Source: a virus. Taken from it: a stretch of 64,000 bases of DNA. The notes under the pieces were generated by a model, which saw only the letters and a program-made list of their open reading frames with translations, was not told where the DNA came from and made no database searches. Below, piece by piece: positions 17,789 through 37,732 of this stretch. Location: the IMG/VR virus record IMGVR_UViG_3300020172_001601, positions 1 to 64,000 of that record; one strand, 5' to 3'. Both the position numbers and the translations under genes were made by a program. Within the stretch, counting starts at the first letter, position 1; each line of letters starts with the position of its first letter.

Positions 17789-18292
17789 ATGAAACCAAAA
17801 GCCGCACCCCTTGCGATAGTTCCCGTAGCCGATATTCCACAGGCGGTGGATGTCCCTGTCGATAATTTACTTCCTGTCTTTCGCACCATCACGCAGATGG
17901 AACAACTTTGCACAGCACAAGAAGGAATTGGCCTATCAGCGGTTCAGGTAGGCATTCCCTGGAAGTTATTTATCGTCCAAAGAGGCCACGGTTACGAATA
18001 TTACATCAACTGTGAGTATAATGGCATTGGTGAAAAACAAAAATCTATCGAAGGATGTTTATCTCTTCGAGACTCGCAGGGCAATTTGCGACGATTCGAG
18101 GTTGACCGATATTCCTCGATTGCCGTAAAGGGCAAGCAACTGAAAATATCATCCGACTCCCCTTCTTTGGTTTTGGATGATGTGGATCACATCGAACACG
18201 ATCTATATGCAGTTGTTTTTCAGCACGAGATAGATCACCACAATGATGTCCTTATCAGCGACATTGGCACCGAAGTCGAACTCACGAGGTAA
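17789..18292 (+). CDS. def: Peptide deformylase
   Basis: 167 residues with all three family motifs: GIGLSAVQ at 46-53, EGCLS at 88-92 (Cys90 as metal ligand) and HEIDH at 146-150 (His-Glu-x-x-His). It removes formyl groups from new N-termini. Phage versions are known from marine myoviruses, where they are thought to support maturation of particular proteins. The ATG sits just after a TACAAT box with no ribosome-binding site, so the mRNA is probably leaderless. It lies in a translation cluster with bS21. Confidence 0.95.
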   Translation: MKPKAAPLAIVPVADIPQAVDVPVDNLLPVFRTITQMEQLCTAQEGIGLSAVQVGIPWKLFIVQRGHGYEYYINCEYNGIGEKQKSIEGCLSLRDSQGNLRRFEVDRYSSIAVKGKQLKISSDSPSLVLDDVDHIEHDLYAVVFQHEIDHHNDVLISDIGTEVELTR

Positions 18293-19136: not shown

Positions 19137-19165
19137 TTGACAACCCAAAGTTTTTCTCGTATCTT
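19137..19165 (+). promoter_or_regulatory. Sigma70-like promoter before the 19212 gene
   Basis: Consensus TTGACA (19137-19142), 17-base spacer, TATCTT (19160-19165). It faces away from the lipoprotein gene and drives the operon that ends with the indoleamine-dioxygenase-like gene. Confidence 0.65.
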
Positions 19166-19211: not shown

Positions 19212-19700
19212 ATGGCGCAACAAAAATGGCAGGATGCAGACCTGGATTACGACGAGATCGAAGTTCAGGGTGGCGATGAATCGCCGGAAGAATATACGCC
19301 AGAGCAAGAACGTGCCATCAAGGTCTTTGCCCAGGATTTCTACAGTGATGTGAAAGCCCTGGCTCGACAATATATGGAGCAGTTCTTTCAGGATAAGATG
19401 CTTCACTGCGGCGGCAAAATTCCCAAATCACTTCTCTTCGCTGAACGCCGGGTTTCGATGGTCTTGAATTACGATATAATCAAGGGCGTCGAGCGAGCAT
19501 ACAAATATCTTGAACCCACATTGCGGATTCAAGATGTCGAATCCGCAAAGCAGACAGGTGAGGCCACAGACGATATTAAGCTCGTCAATGAAACCCTCAG
19601 TTTACTCGCTCGGTCAGGCATCCCACAGCAATTTGCTGGCGGTATGATGTGCTTGTACTTAGAGTTTATTGAGGGCGTCCATATTGGCACAGAACCGTGA
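19212..19700 (+). CDS. Hypothetical protein, first gene of the IDO-like operon
   Basis: 162 residues from ATG 19212 (AAGGAGG upstream). The N-terminus is acidic (DLDYDEIEVQGGDESPEEYTP), followed by predicted helices with LARQYMEQFFQDKML and VNETLSLLARSG. No known domain recognised. It overlaps the next gene by 32 bases and shares the TTGACA promoter. Confidence 0.75.
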   Translation: MAQQKWQDADLDYDEIEVQGGDESPEEYTPEQERAIKVFAQDFYSDVKALARQYMEQFFQDKMLHCGGKIPKSLLFAERRVSMVLNYDIIKGVERAYKYLEPTLRIQDVESAKQTGEATDDIKLVNETLSLLARSGIPQQFAGGMMCLYLEFIEGVHIGTEP

Positions 19701-19986
19701 TCTCAGTTTCCTAGCTCGACAATGGGAAACTGTTGAACTGCCCAAAGAGAAGAAGTATTTGCTCAGATACTTCAATACGCCGCTTCAAGCGGCCTTCTTA
19801 AAGTACGTCCACATCTTTGGAGATTACTCTAATTTCGTTGACCATACTGGCCTAGCAAGTAGCCCTCGATGGCTCGCAATCCTGTACAATAGATTGCAGA
19901 CATTGCAAACACTACACCGTGAAGCTAGGGCTAATATGGATATGACGGCCCTGGCTCACATTGAATCAGGGAATTACAAATTATGA
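19669..19986 (+). CDS. Hypothetical helical protein in the IDO-like operon
   Basis: 105 residues, mainly predicted helix, rich in aromatic residues (RQWETVEL, YLLRYFNTPLQAAFLKYVHIFGDYSNF). The start is uncertain: the open frame begins at 19669, 32 bases inside the previous gene. It overlaps the IDO-like gene by four bases (ATGA), so the two are coupled. Function unknown. Confidence 0.65.
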   Translation: MRASILAQNRDLSFLARQWETVELPKEKKYLLRYFNTPLQAAFLKYVHIFGDYSNFVDHTGLASSPRWLAILYNRLQTLQTLHREARANMDMTALAHIESGNYKL

Positions 19987-21170
19987 GCATGTGGGATATT
20001 ACAGATCGTGGGTTTCTAGGCGTGGCCGATCCACTCGTTTCGCTCACGGCTAAAAACGAAAAGTATATTCCAGCCGCCGTTAGGTTGGAAAATATTGCTT
20101 CTGTTTTGCCGTATTGGATTGAAGAAAGATGTATACGAGAAGAACTCGTACACAACCTGCGTGAGATTGCCCCGTTGATTGATGGTGAGTTTTTACTGAA
20201 TCAAGATGAGGTAAAAACCGAACGGCTGATGCACCTGTATTCCTATATGGCCAGTGCTTATGTCTTCGCTAGACATGAGAATGCCGCCACGAGAATACCG
20301 TCAGAGATCGCTGTTCCACTTACTATGGTCGCTGAAAAGCTAGACCGCAAACCGATCCTTTCTTACGCTTCATATTGTTTAACCAATTGGGAGCGTATAG
20401 ACCCTAATGATGAAATCAAGTTGGGCAATATAAAATTGCTTACAAACTTTTCATCGCCAGAGTCGGGAAAATCAGATGAGGACTGGTTCATTCTGGTTCA
20501 TGTCGATATTGAAAATTGTGCTGCCGATGGTGTTGGTGCCTGTAAACAACTTTTGGAAAATCCCTGGAAGCAAGGCAACGAAGTTCACAATATTGTCACG
20601 GCCAACGATATTCTTACCAAGATTTTCGTCAGCTTGGCGAAGATGAATAAGACAATGGCAAAGATGCCAGATGAATGCAGTCCAGACAATTACTTCCGAT
20701 GGGTGAGGCCGTATATCTTCTCGTTCAATAACATGGTCTATAAAGGCTGTTTCCAAGATCAGCCAATTACCTGTCGAGGGGAAACCGGGGCGCAAAGTAG
20801 CATCATTCCTGCTTTTTTGGCGGCTCTCGAAATCAACCATCAGGATTCCATGCTGACGCATCACCTTATGGAGATGCGTGATTACATGCCAGCCCCTCAC
20901 CGACGATTTCTTTCAAATCTTGTGATCCAGACAGCGAATAATTCCGTTGTGGGGGTAGGTCTGCGAGATTTTGCTCGGCGTGACCCGGTGTTGAAGGACA
21001 TCTACAACGAGTGCGTCAATGAGATTATTGCCTTCCGAAACAAGCATTTCGAGTACGCAGTCAACTATATCTCCAAGAAGGTTGAAAATCCTTCCGGGAC
21101 GGGCGGTACGCCCTATGTCCCGTGGCTGAAACAACTTAGAGAAGAAACCGAGTCACACCTGATCCCGTAA
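19983..21170 (+). CDS. Indoleamine 2,3-dioxygenase family haem protein
   Basis: 395 residues, close to the length of cellular IDO. Family blocks in order: FARHENAATRIPSEIAVPL (~95-113), ILSYASYCLTNW (~125-136), DWFILVHVDIE (~167-177), RGETGAQSSIIPAF (~265-278), MRDYMPAPHRRFL (~298-310), the FRNKH segment with proximal-haem-ligand candidate His355, and GTGGTPYVPWLKQLREET (~372-389). IDO opens the indole ring of tryptophan with O2, giving N-formylkynurenine. The main motifs are kept, so it is probably folded and haem-binding; the true substrate is unknown. It is the last gene of a three-gene operon. Confidence 0.93.
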   Translation: MSMWDITDRGFLGVADPLVSLTAKNEKYIPAAVRLENIASVLPYWIEERCIREELVHNLREIAPLIDGEFLLNQDEVKTERLMHLYSYMASAYVFARHENAATRIPSEIAVPLTMVAEKLDRKPILSYASYCLTNWERIDPNDEIKLGNIKLLTNFSSPESGKSDEDWFILVHVDIENCAADGVGACKQLLENPWKQGNEVHNIVTANDILTKIFVSLAKMNKTMAKMPDECSPDNYFRWVRPYIFSFNNMVYKGCFQDQPITCRGETGAQSSIIPAFLAALEINHQDSMLTHHLMEMRDYMPAPHRRFLSNLVIQTANNSVVGVGLRDFARRDPVLKDIYNECVNEIIAFRNKHFEYAVNYISKKVENPSGTGGTPYVPWLKQLREETESHLIP

Positions 21171-21176
21171 GTTTGC

Positions 21177-21205
21177 TTTACAGCACGGCAAAATCAGGGT
21201 AGAAT
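21177..21205 (+). promoter_or_regulatory. Sigma70-like promoter of the PspA module
   Basis: TTTACA (21177-21182), 17-base spacer, TAGAAT (21200-21205), located seven bases after the IDO-like gene and 41 bases before ATG 21247. It starts the three-gene membrane-stress-like unit. Confidence 0.65.
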
Positions 21206-27069: not shown

Positions 27070-27373
27070 TTTCTGCGTTGCCACATTTTCTTTTTGTTGG
27101 ATATTTATTGGCGGGGTTGGGGCGATAGACACTGGATTGACAGTTCATTTACGGGACGGTCTTGAAGAAAACGAAAGAAACCCAATTGCCCGAATGATCT
27201 TGGCAAGCGATGGCTGGGAAGTCTCACGTTTCATTGGATTGAAGATGTTTGGCACTATATTGGTGTTGGGCATCGTCATTTGTCTTTTCAAGCGAGATGC
27301 CAAGCATGGCTTGATTGTTATTGGCTCTTTAGCTGTATTTCAGGCTTTCTTGCTGCTTTACCTGTCATTATAA
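26978..27373 (+). CDS. DUF5658-like membrane protein
   Basis: 131 residues from ATG 26978, chosen because GGAGGA lies nine bases upstream. The open frame continues further 5' but only as a shadow of the previous gene. Three or four hydrophobic helices surround the block DTGLTVHLRDGLEENERNPI, similar to small membrane proteins with a conserved ENEXNP motif (DUF5658). Function of that family is unknown. The 5' 92 bases are dual-coding. Confidence 0.7.
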   Translation: MSNESLKTNQPQESPSPKPLKTSMWKRIWNNFCVATFSFCWIFIGGVGAIDTGLTVHLRDGLEENERNPIARMILASDGWEVSRFIGLKMFGTILVLGIVICLFKRDAKHGLIVIGSLAVFQAFLLLYLSL

Positions 27374-27390
27374 TTTACAGGAGGGAGAAT

Positions 27391-27858
27391 ATGCCTGATG
27401 AGATCATTTTAAGCTCGATGTCGGAGCCTGATTATGTCGTGGTTACACCAGACTTTAAGGCTAAGACCGCCAAAGAATTGCAACATTTTTTGGAAGTTGT
27501 CCCATCATTTGAGCGGACGTATATTATTGTGACGGCACACCATCGGGAGCGTGGTCGTAACTTTGTGAATAGAATAAGTTGCAAGAAAGGTTTGCCCATT
27601 GGCGGCTACACCTACGATTCGCAGACTGACAGCTATCATGTAGAGTGTTCTGACTATCTCCACTTAGGTTATGTTCCTATTTCTTTCACCACACGGGTCA
27701 AGGGATTGATTGGATGGGAAATGAGAGTGCCTATGCCCGAAAACGTGTTGAAGAAATATCTGTCTTCTTTACAAAAGAAAGAACTCAAGAATTTCAAAAA
27801 CCACTTCAAGGTCGAAGACTATGAAGTTCAGTTCATCCAGATGATTGACCCGAATTGA
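27391..27858 (+). CDS. Hypothetical protein
   Basis: 155 residues from ATG 27391 (GGAGGGAG upstream). It contains YIIVTAHHRERGRNF and a basic Lys-rich C-terminus (KKELKNFKNHFK). The sequence looks globular and soluble; no family recognised. It lies in an operon with the dCMP deaminase. Confidence 0.7.
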   Translation: MPDEIILSSMSEPDYVVVTPDFKAKTAKELQHFLEVVPSFERTYIIVTAHHRERGRNFVNRISCKKGLPIGGYTYDSQTDSYHVECSDYLHLGYVPISFTTRVKGLIGWEMRVPMPENVLKKYLSSLQKKELKNFKNHFKVEDYEVQFIQMIDPN

Positions 27859-27866
27859 AATGAGCG

Positions 27867-28316
27867 ATGAATAAGGTACGCAGACGTTTCAAAGAAACGG
27901 TTAATCGAGATGATTACTGGATGGCGATGGCATTTATGCTGTCAGCCGGTTCCTCTTCTAATCGTCCACAAGGCTGCATAATCGTTGGCACGAACAATGA
28001 ACCACTGGCTATGGCCTGCGATGGCTCGCCCAGGTCCATGCAGGACAGCAGCCATGTGGTTCATGCCGAGATGAATGCAATATTCAATTGCAAAGGCCCC
28101 ATTCCTGGCGGCACAGCATATTTGACTCACACGCCCTGTTATCATTGCGCCCTGAGTTTAATCGGGGCAAATATCAAAAGAATAGTATATTTTCCCACCA
28201 AATCTATAGACCCAGACACTTTAGATGCTGTACGATGTGCATACGCTCAATCAGATGAGTTCAAGGGCAACCTGAACTGGATGAGGGACTATCTCAAGAC
28301 CCTCAACATATTTTGA
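27867..28316 (+). CDS. dCMP/cytidine deaminase family enzyme
   Basis: 149 residues. Zinc site: HAE at 66-68 (His ligand and catalytic Glu) and PCYHC at 90-94 (two Cys ligands). Deoxycytidylate deaminases of phages convert dCMP to dUMP, feeding thymidylate synthesis. With the dUTPase at 39079, both dUMP-producing routes are present. No thymidylate synthase is visible in this window. The exact substrate, dCMP or a free nucleoside, is inferred from phage context. Confidence 0.88.
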   Translation: MNKVRRRFKETVNRDDYWMAMAFMLSAGSSSNRPQGCIIVGTNNEPLAMACDGSPRSMQDSSHVVHAEMNAIFNCKGPIPGGTAYLTHTPCYHCALSLIGANIKRIVYFPTKSIDPDTLDAVRCAYAQSDEFKGNLNWMRDYLKTLNIF

Positions 28317-28326
28317 TCGCCGAAAC

Positions 28327-28334
28327 GATAAATA
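28327..28334 (+). promoter_or_regulatory. GATAAATA late-type promoter before the 28340 gene
   Basis: GATAAATA ends five bases before ATG 28340, inside the gap after the deaminase stop. Same spacing as at 26267. Confidence 0.55.
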
Positions 28335-28339
28335 ACCGT

Positions 28340-29125
28340 ATGACATGCACATCATCAGGAATCGGTTGCTCTCCTCAGCCACAGGGTTGCCCAGATCAGT
28401 TAGGCTGCGTTCCGGGCATTTGCCCGGACTTTACTCTTCGTAGACATGACACAAAGCCTGCATTCAAGGTGAAGATGGAGGATTGCGATGGTCCTATGGA
28501 CCTGACCGATCTGATATTGGAAGCTACGATGTGGGCCAAAGCCAAGCTCAAGAAGACGATCACGCCCAGCGACACATATTTTGCGTTAGCTGACAATATC
28601 GGCTTTAACCAAATAATGGTTGGCGATATAATTTTCATGGACCAAGCAAGACTTCCAGAAAAGATGCTGGTTATTGCTTTCGACGAAACCAACAGACTTA
28701 TTGAAGTCCAACGTGGGTATCACGGAACAAGTATTCAGACTTGGAAAAAAGGCACTCCGTTAAGAATTATGAAGTTTATCGGAGCAACAGCAGAAACGGA
28801 AATGTTGTACCAAGATATACTTGAAATGGATGGTACTACAACACCGAACGTCTTGATGGATAGTTTCTTCGTGTACGAATGGGGTCCGACAGATACCTGT
28901 CTTCCTGGTTGCTACTACTTAGAATTCAAACTTCTCAAATTACTCGATGTTGCCCCGATTATGCCGTTGGCAGACCCGATAGTGCCAAGTTTTACCGACC
29001 CAAGTTTGACGCCAGTGGATTTCGGCTGTGGTCTTGGGATCGGAGTTGAATGGGTTCGCCGCTTTCCGGTGGATAGCGAAGGATTCCTGATAAAGATCAC
29101 GGATTCACCAACAGCCGAAAACTAG
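28340..29125 (+). CDS. Probable virion (baseplate/fibre-associated) protein
   Basis: 261 residues from ATG 28340 (the earlier in-frame ATG 28313 lies before the promoter box). The N-terminus is Cys/Pro-rich (GCSPQPQGCPDQLGCVPGIC). Then RRHDTKPAFKVKMED and DLTDLILEATMW resemble the immunoglobulin-like first domain of baseplate upper proteins, and VQRGYHGTSIQTWKKGTPLRI follows. Assignment as structural is inference from that pattern plus the late-type promoter. Confidence 0.6.
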   Translation: MTCTSSGIGCSPQPQGCPDQLGCVPGICPDFTLRRHDTKPAFKVKMEDCDGPMDLTDLILEATMWAKAKLKKTITPSDTYFALADNIGFNQIMVGDIIFMDQARLPEKMLVIAFDETNRLIEVQRGYHGTSIQTWKKGTPLRIMKFIGATAETEMLYQDILEMDGTTTPNVLMDSFFVYEWGPTDTCLPGCYYLEFKLLKLLDVAPIMPLADPIVPSFTDPSLTPVDFGCGLGIGVEWVRRFPVDSEGFLIKITDSPTAEN

Positions 29126-29136
29126 GGAGAAGCCTA

Positions 29137-30768
29137 ATGCCATCAGTAGCCGAATTTTTGATCGAACGCCTGGAGAATGCCGGAGTTAAACATATCTTCG
29201 GTGTCCCAGGCGATTATGTTTTACAGTTTATTCAGCAGGTTTCTCAAACCGACAAGATTAAGTTCATCAATACGACTGACGAAAATCATGCCGGATTTGC
29301 AGCAGACGCATATGCGAGAATTCATGGCATTGGTTGCGTGTGTGCCACATATAACGTCGGAGCTTTGAAGCTCTGTAATTCAGTGGCCGGAGCATACGCT
29401 GAAAGATCGCCAGTATTGGTTATCAGTGGCTCGCCAGGACTGAAGGAAAGAAACGATGATTTTCTCCTTCATCATGTTGTCAAAGGGTTCGATAACCAGT
29501 TGAAAATATTCAATCATATAACCTGCCACAGTGTTATATTGGATGACGCCACGACAGCAGGTTGGAAAATCGACCAAGCTCTCGAAATGCTCAAGCACTA
29601 TAAGCAGCCGGTATATATCGAACTGCCTCGTGACGTAGCCGATCAGCCATTGAGATATGACGTATATCGTCAGGGGACTCCTGTGGAGCCGCCGAGCGAT
29701 GAAGAAAATCTCAAAGAAGCTCTGACTGAAATTTCCCAATGGATCAAAGATGCCAAGAATCCTGTCATTATGGCTGGAGTTCAGGTCGCTCGATTTGGAT
29801 TGGGCGGTGCGTTGGTTCGGTTTGCCGAGCGGCACAATATTCCAATGGTCACAACTTTATTGAGCAAATCAACAATCAATGAGCATCACCCATTGTTCGC
29901 CGGAGTATATTGTGGCAATCAAACGTCTGAGGAATCTCTACGAAAATTAGTGGACGATTCAGACTGCCTTCTGATATTCGGCGAAATGCTTACGGATATG
30001 ATGCTAGGGTTCCAATCCCCTAAATTTGCCAAGCGACAAACCGTATCTTGCTCTATTGAAGAGTTGAAGATTCGTAACCATTCTTATACGGACGTGCGGT
30101 TCTTGGATGTCTGCAATCATTTGTTCAAATCTGACTTGGGCAAGCGAGAGGCACCAAATATTCCTGTTCGTAAGAAGGCTGAATCATTTGTGCCTGTGGC
30201 TGACGCCAAGATCACCACAACTCGATTCTTTGAGAAGATCGACAGCATGTTGACCGACCAGATGGCGGTCGTGGCAGATATTGGCGAATGCTTATTTGGT
30301 GCTGCTGAACTCACTGTTTCACATCATCACTTTATCAGCCCCGCATTTTATTGTAGCATGGGTCCAGCCATCCCCGGAGCGTTGGGCTTGCAGATGGCGA
30401 AACCTCATTTGAGGCCAATTGTGCTGGTTGGTGACGGTGCATTCCAAATGTCTGTGACCGAACTGAGTACAATATTAGAACATAAATTGAACCCCATCGT
30501 ATTTGTCCTGAATAATCAGGGCTATACAACAGAAAGATTTCTGTTGGATGGAGACTTCAATAACATAAGAAATTGGGATTACCACAAAGTAACTGAAATG
30601 TTACGAGGCGGTCAGGGAGTTAAAGTAGAGACGGAAGACCAGCTTGAAGCTGCCATCGCTACTGCCTTGAAATGCACTACGTTGTTCGTAGTGAATGTCT
30701 CTGTTGATTCCAAAGACATAACTCCAGGTTTAAGGAGAATGGTTGAAAACCTTTCTAAGAGAGTCTAA
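29137..30768 (+). CDS. Thiamine-diphosphate 2-oxoacid decarboxylase (pyruvate/indolepyruvate decarboxylase-like)
   Basis: 543 residues, full length for the family. GVPGDYVLQF is followed by catalytic Glu49 in TTDENHAGFAADAYAR, then the paired histidines LLHH at 110-113 that distinguish the decarboxylase branch, and the TPP/Mg site GDGAFQ...NNQGYTTE near residues 430-465. Such enzymes turn a 2-oxoacid into CO2 and an aldehyde. Pyruvate, phenylpyruvate and indolepyruvate are all plausible substrates; I cannot separate them. It is one base overlapped with the IF-3 gene. An aldehyde dehydrogenase 2.5 kb downstream could take the product. Confidence 0.88.
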   Translation: MPSVAEFLIERLENAGVKHIFGVPGDYVLQFIQQVSQTDKIKFINTTDENHAGFAADAYARIHGIGCVCATYNVGALKLCNSVAGAYAERSPVLVISGSPGLKERNDDFLLHHVVKGFDNQLKIFNHITCHSVILDDATTAGWKIDQALEMLKHYKQPVYIELPRDVADQPLRYDVYRQGTPVEPPSDEENLKEALTEISQWIKDAKNPVIMAGVQVARFGLGGALVRFAERHNIPMVTTLLSKSTINEHHPLFAGVYCGNQTSEESLRKLVDDSDCLLIFGEMLTDMMLGFQSPKFAKRQTVSCSIEELKIRNHSYTDVRFLDVCNHLFKSDLGKREAPNIPVRKKAESFVPVADAKITTTRFFEKIDSMLTDQMAVVADIGECLFGAAELTVSHHHFISPAFYCSMGPAIPGALGLQMAKPHLRPIVLVGDGAFQMSVTELSTILEHKLNPIVFVLNNQGYTTERFLLDGDFNNIRNWDYHKVTEMLRGGQGVKVETEDQLEAAIATALKCTTLFVVNVSVDSKDITPGLRRMVENLSKRV

Positions 30769-31346
30769 TGATGAATAGCCCTAACTTCGGTAGGAAGTTC
30801 TATGGTGGTCGAGACGGTGGTAATCGTCGTAACGAAGATGAAAACCGTATCAATTGGCAGATTCGAGTCCCACAGGTTAGGGTCGTCAAAGATGAAGAAC
30901 AACTCGGCATAATGCCGACCGATGAGGCTCGCAGACTAGCTCAAGATGAGGGTCTGGACCTTGTTGAGATTGCTCCCCAGGCCCGTCCTCCGGTGTGCCG
31001 GATTATGGATTACGGACGGTTCAAATATGAGGAGAAGGCAAAGAAAAAGGAAAGCGCCAAGAAGCAGCGTGAGTCGCAAGTGCAATTGAAAGAATTGCGT
31101 TTGCGTCCCGGTATTGCCGAACACGACACCGATACCAAAATCAATCAGGCCAAAAAGTTCCTGGAAGAAGGTAGTCGTGTGCAGTTCACTTTGCAGTTTA
31201 GGGGACAACGAGAGATGTCTCATAAGGATCAAGGCTTTTCTGTCATGAAAAGAGTGACAGATGCTCTTGAACCCGTCTGCATCGTGGAGAAGGCACCCAA
31301 GCTAGAGGGAAACCGGATTATATGCTATTTAGCGCCCAAGGCTTAA
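30768..31346 (+). CDS. infC: Translation initiation factor IF-3
   Basis: 192 residues, with both IF-3 domains. The N-domain shows NWQIRVPQVRVV, a DEARRLAQDEGLDLVEIAP helix and CRIMDYGRFKYE. A Lys-rich linker and the C-domain follow (KELRLRPGIAEHDTDTKINQ, FLEEGSRVQFTLQFRGREMSH-like segment). IF-3 keeps 30S subunits free and checks initiator codons; it also disfavours leaderless mRNAs in E. coli. A 20-residue Gly/Arg/Asn-rich extension precedes the core. Two adjacent ATGs (30768, 30771) are both possible starts. Confidence 0.95.
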   Translation: MMNSPNFGRKFYGGRDGGNRRNEDENRINWQIRVPQVRVVKDEEQLGIMPTDEARRLAQDEGLDLVEIAPQARPPVCRIMDYGRFKYEEKAKKKESAKKQRESQVQLKELRLRPGIAEHDTDTKINQAKKFLEEGSRVQFTLQFRGQREMSHKDQGFSVMKRVTDALEPVCIVEKAPKLEGNRIICYLAPKA

Positions 31347-33010: not shown

Positions 33011-33296
33011 TTTTTGGTTAGATCGCAAGAAGCCAGTCGATGCTGACACGACGCCTTTGTTGAAAGTCGGCGTTCGCCGACTCATGGTTTACATTGAGCG
33101 ACGAACTCATTACTTGTGGCAGGAAGATGCGTCTATGTACACATTTTCTTCCAAGGTCAAAGAGTTGTTAGACCAGCTACGTCGTCGTGGTGCTTTTTGT
33201 GATTACAACTTCATTTGTTCTGAAAAGACAATGGTGATCGGCATTCAGCCCAATGAAAGAGTTCCTTGGGTATATCTGGAACAGGAATTAGTATGA
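33003..33296 (+). CDS. Hypothetical protein with GTG start
   Basis: 97 residues. GTG 33003 is preceded five bases upstream by GGAGG and overlaps the Fe-S carrier's end by eight bases; the product would open MRNFWLDRKKPV. The next ATG (33085) would give only a 70-residue protein and lacks a ribosome-binding site. Basic protein with YIERRTHYLWQEDASM; no family recognised. It ends four bases inside the aldehyde dehydrogenase gene. Confidence 0.6.
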   Translation: MRNFWLDRKKPVDADTTPLLKVGVRRLMVYIERRTHYLWQEDASMYTFSSKVKELLDQLRRRGAFCDYNFICSEKTMVIGIQPNERVPWVYLEQELV

Positions 33297-34780
33297 GTCA
33301 ATATGTTGGCATGAATTATATCGGCGGGTTTCTCCCATCCCGTGCCGATTTCGGCAGTTTCAATCCTGCCAATGAAGAACCCATCGGATATTTCCCTCAA
33401 TCGACTGATGCCGAAATTGATGAAGCCCTGGTCGCCGCTCAGAAGGCTTTTCCATCGTGGAAAGCTCTTAGCCGGGTCCAGAGGGCCGAATACTTCTGGC
33501 GTCTAGCGAAGCTGTTGGAAACCAAGGTGGATTATGTCGCTAAGGCCATCTCGCTTGAAACTGGCAAATCATTGAACGAGAGCAAAGCAGAAGTCATTGA
33601 GGCTTTGCATATGACTCAGTTCTGTTTTGGCAAGGGTCGTGAGCCGTCTGGCGACATTGTTGCTTCAGAGCTTCCAGAGCGGGACAGCTATGTGATCCGC
33701 AAGCCCAAGGGTGTTGTGGGCGTCATTGCTCCGTGGAACTTTCCATTCGCCATTGGTGGATTCTGGTGTTCTGGCCCATCTCTTCTGGAGGGCAACACCG
33801 TTGTCTTCAAGCCAAGCGAATTGACTCCAATGGTTGGACAGATCACAGCAGAACTCTTTCAAGACGCTGGCTTCCCACCGGGCGTCTTCAACTTATTACA
33901 CGGCGATGGCGACGTAGGTGCGAAGATCGTCAATGACGAACGAGTGGCACATATTGCTTTCACTGGCAGTGCTGAGGTTGGCCGATATATTCGCATTGCT
34001 TGTGCGAAGAGTTGGCACAAGACCTGTAGTTGTGAAATGGGCAGTAAGTCCGCAGTGATGGTCTTTGCCGATTGCGATTTCGATCTGGCAGTATCAGCCT
34101 GTGTTAACAGTGCGTTCAAGTTGAGTGGTCAGAGATGTGTATCGGCGGGCAGGCTGCTCGTTCAGCGATCAGTATTGGAAAAGTTCAAAGAACGGTTCTT
34201 GTATGAAGTCGGCACAGCGGTAGCCATTGATCCTTTTGATACGCCGCCCGGCGTTTGCTCTGTTGCGTTTGGTCCATTGATTAGCCAGGAGCAGATGAAT
34301 AGGGTTGCAGAGTTCAACGATCTCGTGCGATCAGACCCGGACGCCACAGTTTTATTTGACGGCGATAAAGATGGAAGGATGGATGGAAAGGGATATTTTT
34401 TGCGGCCATTCGTATATCAATCGGAATGGGCTGATAAGATGTATCTAAAACAAGAAGTATTTGGCCCGCATGTGGCAATTATTCCTTTCGATACCCTTGA
34501 AGATGCGATCAGAATATACAATGATACTGAGTACGGGTTGGCGTTGGGCGTTATTACCAACGACTTTCGTACTGCCAGAGAAGTAAGGAACCGATGTGAT
34601 TTCGGTTTAGGATATTGGAACGGCGGCAGCATTGCTGCCGAGAGCCATAATCCATTTGGTGGCGTGAAAAAGTCTGGTAATGGATGGCCTTCTGCTGCCG
34701 GTATGTTTGACGCAATCACGCACAAGGTAGCGTGGTCTGCGAATCACGGCGGGTTGAGCTTTCCACAAGGACTGAAGTAA
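33293..34780 (+). CDS. NAD(P)-dependent aldehyde dehydrogenase
   Basis: 495 residues from ATG 33293, full family length. It shows PWNFPFAIG, FKPSELTP, the cofactor segment FTGSAEVGRYI, general-base Glu in CEMGSKSAV and the catalytic Cys at about 282 in SGQRCVSAG. Near the C-terminus are EVFGPHVAI and NPFGGVKKSG. It oxidises an aldehyde to a carboxylic acid; the substrate is unknown (the aminoadipate-semialdehyde/P6C branch is one possibility). Together with the decarboxylase at 29137 it could convert a 2-oxoacid to the shortened acid (inference). Confidence 0.92.
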   Translation: MSQYVGMNYIGGFLPSRADFGSFNPANEEPIGYFPQSTDAEIDEALVAAQKAFPSWKALSRVQRAEYFWRLAKLLETKVDYVAKAISLETGKSLNESKAEVIEALHMTQFCFGKGREPSGDIVASELPERDSYVIRKPKGVVGVIAPWNFPFAIGGFWCSGPSLLEGNTVVFKPSELTPMVGQITAELFQDAGFPPGVFNLLHGDGDVGAKIVNDERVAHIAFTGSAEVGRYIRIACAKSWHKTCSCEMGSKSAVMVFADCDFDLAVSACVNSAFKLSGQRCVSAGRLLVQRSVLEKFKERFLYEVGTAVAIDPFDTPPGVCSVAFGPLISQEQMNRVAEFNDLVRSDPDATVLFDGDKDGRMDGKGYFLRPFVYQSEWADKMYLKQEVFGPHVAIIPFDTLEDAIRIYNDTEYGLALGVITNDFRTAREVRNRCDFGLGYWNGGSIAAESHNPFGGVKKSGNGWPSAAGMFDAITHKVAWSANHGGLSFPQGLK

Positions 34781-36269: not shown

Positions 36270-36653
36270 ATGGCAAAGAGCAAGATTTTAGCCCCGTCAG
36301 GGCTTTCGATTTCCAGCACCACACCGATTATCGGTCAGCAGACTTTCACTCCTGTTCCAGAGATCACAGGCGTTAAGCCATGTGGTGCGCAGGTGTTGAT
36401 CGAGATGTTGACAGCACAGGAATTGGCAAATACGCCGATTACCATTTCCGAAAAGACGGACCTCAAGGTTCCGCTTCAGGGATATGTTCGAGCAGCAGGC
36501 CCATCCTTCAAGAGTGAGGATTGGGGTTTCAAGGTTGGCGACCGAGTGTTGATTTCAGGTGGTGGCGTTATTGCTCCCAACTATGATGATTCTCACCGTG
36601 ATCGCTTCTTCATGGAAGCACACGCTGTTAAGTGCGTGCTGAATGAGGAATGA
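36270..36653 (+). CDS. GroES-like co-chaperonin
   Basis: 127 residues from ATG 36270. GAQVLIEMLTAQELANTPITI corresponds to the GroES core with its mobile-loop region, then GYVRAAGPSFKSEDWGFKVGDRVLISG. An extra ~40-residue N-terminal extension is present. Phage GroES replacements (T4 Gp31, RB49 CocO) cap host GroEL to fold the large capsid protein; that role is likely. It is ATGA-coupled to DnaJ, giving a phage chaperone pair. Confidence 0.82.
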   Translation: MAKSKILAPSGLSISSTTPIIGQQTFTPVPEITGVKPCGAQVLIEMLTAQELANTPITISEKTDLKVPLQGYVRAAGPSFKSEDWGFKVGDRVLISGGGVIAPNYDDSHRDRFFMEAHAVKCVLNEE

Positions 36654-37732
36654 AAGACTACTACGAAGTCCTTGGTGTAGAGAGGGGCGCAACTGACGAA
36701 GAGATCAAGAAGGCGTATCGCAAGAGAGCCAGGACTCATCATCCCGATATGAATCCTGGCGATCCTGACGCCACTAAAAGATTTCAAGAAGTCCAAGAGG
36801 CATATGATACTTTAGGCGATCCGATAAAGAAGTCTAGGTATGATGGTGCCGCTCCGCACATGCGATTTCGTCGTAGGCCGCAAACAAAAACAAATCCTGG
36901 TACACCGCCACCAGGATTTGCTTTTGAAGAAGTCATGGAAGAGTTCTTCGGTGGTAGCACTTTCAAAGGCAGAAACATTACTGTCCGTTTGGAAGTAGAT
37001 TTTAAGGAGGTCTTGACTGGTTGCACGAAGCACATCAAGATCAAAAAGCGAAAACGATGTACAGGTTGTATGGGCAATGGGTTCACAGGTTTTCAACCGT
37101 GTCCTAATTGCGAAGGCAGCGGCGCTGTACAGGTTGCTGATTCCCCATTTGGGTTTCGCACTGCTTGTCAAGTTTGTAGTGGAACGGGCAAGGCGAGTGT
37201 AGTAAAGTGTGGGGACTGTATTGGCTCTGGGTATCTCCCAGGCTACCACGAAAAAGCTCTCGACATAAACATCCCTGCTGGTATCGACAACGGTATGCAG
37301 GTTCGGTTGGCCGGAGAAGGTGAGGAATCCCTTCGAGGCGGCAGGGCCGGAGATGTCATGGTCTTTGTTCTTGTTAAAGAACACCCTTTGTTCAGCAGAG
37401 AAGGGCCTCATTTATCTGTTGAAGTCCCTGTTTCCTATACACAACTGGTCCTTGGGGATGAGATTGAAATCCCTACTTTAGCCGAAGGCTCCTTGAAGGT
37501 CAAAGTTCCTGCTGGGAGTCAATCGCACACAAAGTTCCGTCTGAAGGGGAAAGGTTTTCCGGCTGGCAATGGCTCGCTGGGCGACCTAATAGCTACTTTG
37601 AAGATCGAAACGCCTAAATCTTTTGATGAAGACTACAAGCAGGCGTTAGAAAGGCTTTCTGAGCTAGAAAAGAAGAACATCACACCCCGACGAGAACAAT
37701 GGGCGAAAAAAGTCAGCGGCGAGGGTAAATAA
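36650..37732 (+). CDS. dnaJ: DnaJ-type (Hsp40) co-chaperone
   Basis: 360 residues with complete type-I DnaJ architecture. The J domain has HPD at 31-33. The four zinc-binding CxxCxGxG repeats are CTGCMGNGF, CPNCEGSGA, CQVCSGTGK and CGDCIGSGY. A beta-barrel substrate-binding C-terminus (DVMVFVLVKEHPLFSREG, VPVSYTQLVLGDEIEIPT) follows. The G/F linker is short. It stimulates host DnaK ATPase. Coupling to the GroES-like gene suggests a phage-controlled folding system for virion or replication proteins. Confidence 0.95.
   Translation: MKDYYEVLGVERGATDEEIKKAYRKRARTHHPDMNPGDPDATKRFQEVQEAYDTLGDPIKKSRYDGAAPHMRFRRRPQTKTNPGTPPPGFAFEEVMEEFFGGSTFKGRNITVRLEVDFKEVLTGCTKHIKIKKRKRCTGCMGNGFTGFQPCPNCEGSGAVQVADSPFGFRTACQVCSGTGKASVVKCGDCIGSGYLPGYHEKALDINIPAGIDNGMQVRLAGEGEESLRGGRAGDVMVFVLVKEHPLFSREGPHLSVEVPVSYTQLVLGDEIEIPTLAEGSLKVKVPAGSQSHTKFRLKGKGFPAGNGSLGDLIATLKIETPKSFDEDYKQALERLSELEKKNITPRREQWAKKVSGEGK

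Follow-up and report, generated by a model that had tools for sequence, protein, structure and literature searches.

Does a bacterial virus encode indoleamine 2,3-dioxygenase (IDO) and, if so, what does the enzyme do for it? IDO, a haem enzyme that destroys tryptophan in immune cells, is among the best-studied enzymes of immune tryptophan starvation. The question is raised by a gene in a window of 64,000 bases that opens a virus record of 340,341 bases (bases 1-64000), whose product a preliminary description had placed in the IDO family.

Identity of the gene and of the genome that carries it

The open reading frame begins with ATG and runs uninterrupted for 395 aa (Table 1). Profile PF01231 (IDO) matched the product at E=2.8e-61 with 208 bits (cut-off 26), covering profile positions 5-359 of 412, and solved IDO1/IDO2 chains were matched by sequence with E-values down to 9e-27. 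An AlphaFold2 model built from 17 homologues reached a pLDDT of 85.2 and a pTM of 0.88. Its best PDB match in Foldseek was human IDO1 (TM 0.79/0.83), and among the 50 structure matches listed, all were IDO1 or IDO2 (TMq 0.74-0.82). Because of these E-values, and of homologues with 35-54% identity in other phages, a chance match is excluded. The profile search and the structure prediction that the preliminary description had proposed thus both bore out its assignment, and it is practically certain that the gene encodes a genuine prokaryote-type haem IDO.

Table 1. Positions of the features discussed (window coordinates unless stated otherwise).
Feature	Position	Strand	Evidence
Sigma70-type promoter TTGACA-17-TATCTT of the core operon	19137..19165	+	Sequence; counterpart in IDO-lacking relatives
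Core phage gene 1	19212..19700	+	Homologues at the same place in IDO-lacking relatives
Core phage gene 2 (ORF reaches 19669; probable TTG start 19687)	19687..19986	+	Homologues in IDO-lacking relatives
ATGA stop/start overlap, gene 2/IDO	19983..19986	+	Sequence; same 4-bp overlap in L024 and L042
IDO gene, 395 aa, full length	19983..21170	+	PF01231, IDO1/IDO2 sequence matches, AlphaFold2 model, Foldseek
His173 codon, distal position (S167 in human IDO1; TDO has a distal His)	20499..20501	+	Alignment, invariant
Arg242 codon (human R231, substrate carboxylate)	20706..20708	+	Alignment, invariant
GETGAQSS block, residues 266-273 (human GGSAGQSS)	20778..20801	+	Alignment
His355 codon, proximal haem ligand (human H346)	21045..21047	+	Alignment
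GTGGT block, residues 372-376, including Thr373 (human T379)	21096..21110	+	Alignment
Promoter-like TTTACA-17-TAGAAT upstream of gene 21247, which follows IDO	21177..21205	+	Consensus match only
Core genes 27280, 27867 (deaminase) and 28313, bordering the variable cargo segment on the right	27280..29125	+	Synteny in relatives
Short TrpRS-like gene	About 76,407-77,154 of the 340-kb record (L089/L097)	+	PF00579, TIGR00233

The catalytic residues are intact. His355, earlier put forward as the proximal haem ligand, aligns with human H346 and is invariant across all sequences compared, and the GETGAQSS and GTGGT segments are present as described. R242, T373 and R352 (human R343, the haem-side Arg) are likewise kept and invariant, as is the distal H173 among all phage and prokaryotic IDOs compared. 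The substrate triad of TDO consists of R, T and a distal His. With human IDO1/IDO2 the window IDO has in common the fold (TM about 0.8), the proximal His, R231, T379 and GTGGT; it is only about 25% identical to them and differs in a distal His for Ser167, in GETGAQ for GGSAGQ and in a JK-loop that is shorter in the alignment. The human chain aligned was 6cxu, an S167H mutant; wild-type human IDO1 has S167. The GETGAQSS form is the same in nearly all bacterial homologues compared and sets pocket residues E267/T268 against human G262/S263. Model confidence (pLDDT) was low at residues 365-374, as expected of a mobile loop.

The 340-kb record is a genuine phage genome. It encodes a terminase large subunit at 296 kb (E 9e-26), a virion structural protein (E 5e-111), a collagen-like tail fibre, a DnaE-type polymerase, an NAD-dependent ligase and PhoH, and it shows extended synteny with other large phage contigs. 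Several translation and folding genes were also seen in it: peptide deformylase (17789-18292), initiation factor IF-3 (30768-31346) and DnaJ (36650-37732) in the window, and a full-length TyrRS at about 301.2-302.3 kb of the record.

Insertion site and origins

Probing with gene 19212, and then with core gene 16048, gave about 16 non-redundant relatives that cover the site. Nearly all carry genes 1 and 2 upstream of the IDO slot; in L042 and L076, one of the pair scored below the threshold of the search. About 13 related phages have both genes and their promoter while lacking IDO. Where IDO is missing, the two genes are followed directly by the 27280/27867/28313 genes. IDO occupies the slot in three of the relatives: the window phage; a 134-kb contig (L024), whose IDO is 52% identical and whose flanking genes are conserved over 26 kb; and a 511-kb contig (L042), with 41% identity. 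It was not found at the slot in the others, and was absent from the whole contig in all four IDO-lacking contigs searched entirely. In L073, a sugar-nucleotide dehydratase sits in its place. The core-gene tree places the three carriers on scattered branches. These results indicate that IDO, a host-like gene that some relatives have and others lack at one fixed position of a genuine phage genome, is cargo within a conserved operon of this lineage.

The preliminary description had set IDO and two partners under a TTGACA promoter and had read the overlap with the preceding gene as the sign of a real and intact operon. Both the promoter and the 4-base overlap stand, and gene 2 and IDO are likely to be translationally coupled through the latter. 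Genes 19212 and 19687, in contrast, are not IDO partners, because they also occur in relatives without IDO. A counterpart of the promoter precedes the same core gene in L030, L059 and L062, none of which has IDO. IDO-specific partners and an IDO-specific promoter were therefore rejected; the operon is a core phage operon, not an IDO operon.

A second phage setting was found in the T4-like contigs L025-L029. IDO lies between a saccharopine-dehydrogenase-like gene and a gp43-type DNA polymerase in L027 and L028, near an endolysin in L026, and with gp32 in L029. The gene abuts the saccharopine-dehydrogenase-like gene in L027 (1357-3608), and it follows an FAD-dependent (DAO) oxidoreductase in L026 (1322-4265). 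The dN/dS values of the T4-like IDO genes, about 0.07-0.2, indicate that they are kept under purifying selection.

In a maximum-likelihood tree, the T4-like IDOs separated from the huge-phage IDO clade. A single common phage clade was rejected (AU p = 0.0003), and with it one origin for all phage IDOs; the test did not reject a single origin inside the huge-phage lineage (p 0.13). The trees indicate that phages acquired IDO independently at least twice. The huge-phage clade (100/96) includes a 58-kb tRNA-rich contig (L023) and a Planctomycetota gene (L002), whose neighbour we take to be a planctomycete DUF1549/DUF1553-type protein. L002 is the nearest cellular member of the bacterial IDO clade that probably gave rise to the huge-phage IDO. 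Few Planctomycetota genomes carry IDO (3 of 392). In family, residues and length the window IDO agrees with prokaryotic IDOs (Yuasa et al. 2011, as cited in PMC4217691), being 35-51% identical to bacterial ones, and differs from them in being phage-encoded. Its subclade is set apart by a deletion of 7-9 residues after the VRPYIF block and by a KSDEDWF-type insert, both common to the phages and one Planctomycetota gene. In a tree made without the reference bacteria of PMC4217691, it fell among the prokaryotic IDOs of the distal-His GETGAQ type and apart from human IDO1/2.

A search of INPHARED with either phage IDO gave no match, PHROGs held no family matching IDO, and the open-access literature searched contained no phage IDO. 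The homologue search in phage databases that had been suggested earlier did return at least six other IMG/VR phage contigs with IDO. The earlier remark that no phage IDO had been described therefore holds for INPHARED and the literature searched, and the IMG/VR carriers make "first noticed" the better wording. The enzyme family is known and the phage setting is new, apparently not described before.

A companion TrpRS and its unusual start

A PF00579 search showed that each of the three huge phages with IDO has a short TrpRS-like gene, whose product is about 240 residues long (copies beside that of the window phage are L090/L094, L091/L095, L093 and L096). Its best match was TIGR00233 (E 4e-26 to 7e-31), with scores under the equivalog cut-off. 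The gene was missing from all 14 relatives without IDO, including contigs of 527, 381, 245 and 225 kb, many of the 14 being fragments. The co-occurrence gave a Fisher p of 0.0015, for phages that are related and a search that was among several made; other huge phages are known to have TrpRS but no IDO. A tRNA-Trp gene lies within about 2 kb of TrpRS in two of the three carriers, the window phage and the 134-kb phage. Next to TrpRS lies a large tRNA array (L097, about 72.8-84 kb): 37 tRNA genes were predicted over 20 kb, among them tRNA-Trp CCA. Because the huge-phage IDO carriers also encode TrpRS, the phage may manipulate the tryptophan supply of its host.

The start of this TrpRS gene is unusual. 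In each of the four distinct sequences (five assemblies), the ATG that follows a Shine-Dalgarno sequence lies in the wrong frame for TrpRS: it reads ATG GTG YGT CTT TGG and soon meets a stop, and the frame that holds the HLGH motif continues at +1 relative to it. Upstream of this motif, the window and 134-kb phages have no ATG, GTG or TTG in the TrpRS frame; in the 511-kb phage an alternative in-frame ATG exists. The 15-base block is constant across lineages except for the one Y, while only 20 of 122 invariant TrpRS residues use the same codon in all three lineages. RNA structure prediction at the start was no better than for shuffled sequences. The classic +1 slip site, as in prfB and Ty1, has CUU ahead of a slow codon. 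A conserved slippery site with an out-of-frame continuation was found here in independent sequences, and the conserved CTT-TGG (Leu-Trp) suggests a tryptophan-sensitive +1 frameshift. TrpRS may then be made when charged tRNA-Trp is scarce.

Possible roles and known counterparts

The best-supported explanation for what the computations established (the family, the intact catalytic residues, the cargo position, the recurrence in phages and the co-occurrence with TrpRS) is that a cargo IDO from a bacterial clade oxidises tryptophan and lowers the supply of the infected cell. We favour it tentatively, at a probability a little short of even. During infection, the enzyme would oxidise free L-tryptophan with O2 to N-formylkynurenine, and the tryptophan of the cell would fall. 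Translation of the host, or of competitors, would slow at UGG codons, and the phage TrpRS and tRNA-Trp would protect or re-route the remaining tryptophan, to the benefit of the phage. In favour of tryptophan oxidation, the same locus holds IDO in three divergent, scattered huge phages, and the T4-like clade gained IDO independently. Human cells induce IDO1 and TrpRS together, and the two enzymes act jointly on tryptophan (PMC11346423); tryptophan shortage driven by IDO1 leads to frameshifting (PMC8942854). Against it, the GETGAQ/distal-His type differs from the human enzyme at G262, S263 and S167, and relatives do without IDO. A low-tryptophan proteome as an adaptation was rejected: the window phage is not tryptophan-poor, its proteins containing slightly more Trp than orthologues in IDO-lacking relatives. 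Tryptophan depletion, one of the roles first suggested, is thus the best lead through its link with the phage TrpRS, but it is unproven, since related bacterial IDOs can be very slow.

That slowness is the core of the strongest alternative, which we consider somewhat unlikely. Here the protein would be a slow or redirected relative of IDO, belonging with the haem proteins of low activity found in prokaryotes; its target would be a different indole or O2/peroxide, or it would serve as a sensor of haem, gas or redox state, and tryptophan would not be drained. Of the three IDO branches published, two turn over tryptophan very slowly, namely bacterial IDOs outside the mammal/fungal/Gemmatimonas/S. 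scabiei branch (PMC4217691). The substitution of E267/T268 for human G262/S263 fits such a role, as does the finding that most bacterial homologues are orphan genes with no pathway neighbours. However, none of the known substrate and haem residues is lost, the TDO-like distal His does not vary, and both the TrpRS association and certain haloarchaeal operons point to tryptophan. IDOs of haloarchaeal plasmids fall in the clade that is sister to the huge-phage IDOs (100/100). They have the distal His of the window IDO and adjoin kynureninase in six of six cases, usually with an alpha/beta hydrolase too; neither gene is present at the phage locus. Because of this adjacency, the distal-His IDOs of the wider group probably start tryptophan breakdown.

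The haloarchaeal loci also lend something to the suggestion, made at the outset, that the enzyme feeds kynurenine or NAD synthesis: its N-formylkynurenine would enter kynurenine-pathway enzymes of the host and raise NAD or anthranilate. The window phage has an NAD-dependent DNA ligase, and the 511-kb IDO-positive phage has a nicotinate phosphoribosyltransferase. The latter, of NAD-salvage type, lies at about 375.7-377.1 kb (L092) and scored above the cut-off of NF006629. This suggestion was weakened by the gene content. The kynureninase family PF00266 is absent from the 340-kb record, as is PF04199, the one formamidase family searched for, so a kynurenine operon in the phage was rejected, and no PF00155 aminotransferase was found. 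Curated-level kynureninase was detected in only 3 of 12 IDO-bearing bacteria, and not in the nearest, Planctomycetota. Since the phage lacks pathway genes and most bacterial carriers lack a clear kynureninase, feeding of the pathway is less likely than an effect on tryptophan itself, and we regard it as distinctly improbable. The window also encodes a thiamine-diphosphate 2-oxoacid decarboxylase (29137-30768; best NCBIfam match TIGR03394, indolepyruvate/phenylpyruvate decarboxylase, below cut-off), which pairs with an aldehyde dehydrogenase (33266-34780). Both occur in IDO-lacking relatives as well, and an indole-3-pyruvate route through the decarboxylase was unsupported, given also the lack of PF00155.

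A role in superinfection, defence or deterrence of grazers, in which local tryptophan loss or kynurenines act on competing phages or bacterivores, or serve as a signal, would suit sporadic cargo at a variable site that holds another enzyme in L073; with no defence-gene neighbourhood seen and no direct evidence, it is very unlikely. To a hitchhiking bacterial gene without benefit, or a chimeric or misassembled contig, we give almost no credence: the record is a metagenomic assembly and IDO is known here from sequence, but the gene, its neighbours and the overlap recur in independent contigs, IDO also lies between T4-like phage genes and is there under purifying selection, and the record contains genes for terminase, virion and tail, so that this reading is already largely refuted.

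Tryptophan oxidation by the phage IDO could be extended to a two-part control, which we judge unlikely in this full form. IDO would drain tryptophan, and the shortage would switch on TrpRS: ribosomes would stall at UGG in the five-codon leader with CUU in the P site and slip by +1 into the TrpRS frame, letting the phage secure leftover tryptophan. Control of tryptophan by the phage is an attractive reading, though unproven. The association of IDO with TrpRS and the possible frameshift switch yield a specific prediction on how viruses might sense and exploit amino-acid shortage. The independent gain of IDO in two phage lineages suggests that bacterial viruses also act on the tryptophan pool, and the phage enzymes offer a route to the purpose of the slow, orphan bacterial IDOs.

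Among known systems, phage auxiliary metabolic genes are likewise host-derived metabolic enzymes carried as variable cargo; they differ in that no IDO was present among those, or among the phage records, that the searches turned up. The only other viral protein in BFVD with an IDO-like fold (E 1.4e-17, TMq 0.79) is A0A3G5A0E3 of Harvfovirus, a giant virus and so another kind of virus than the huge phages. It is labelled Trp-tRNA ligase, and from its length of 768 aa and this label it may be a TrpRS-IDO fusion. The leader resembles CUU-UGA of prfB (RF2) and CUU-AGG of Ty1 in placing CUU before a codon, here UGG, that would be slow when Trp-tRNA is scarce, with the reading continuing in +1. It differs in that the slow codon would be a Trp codon and the product TrpRS, and no stimulatory structure was predicted. 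The two-part control, if true, would be a viral counterpart of the human IDO1-WARS1 pair.
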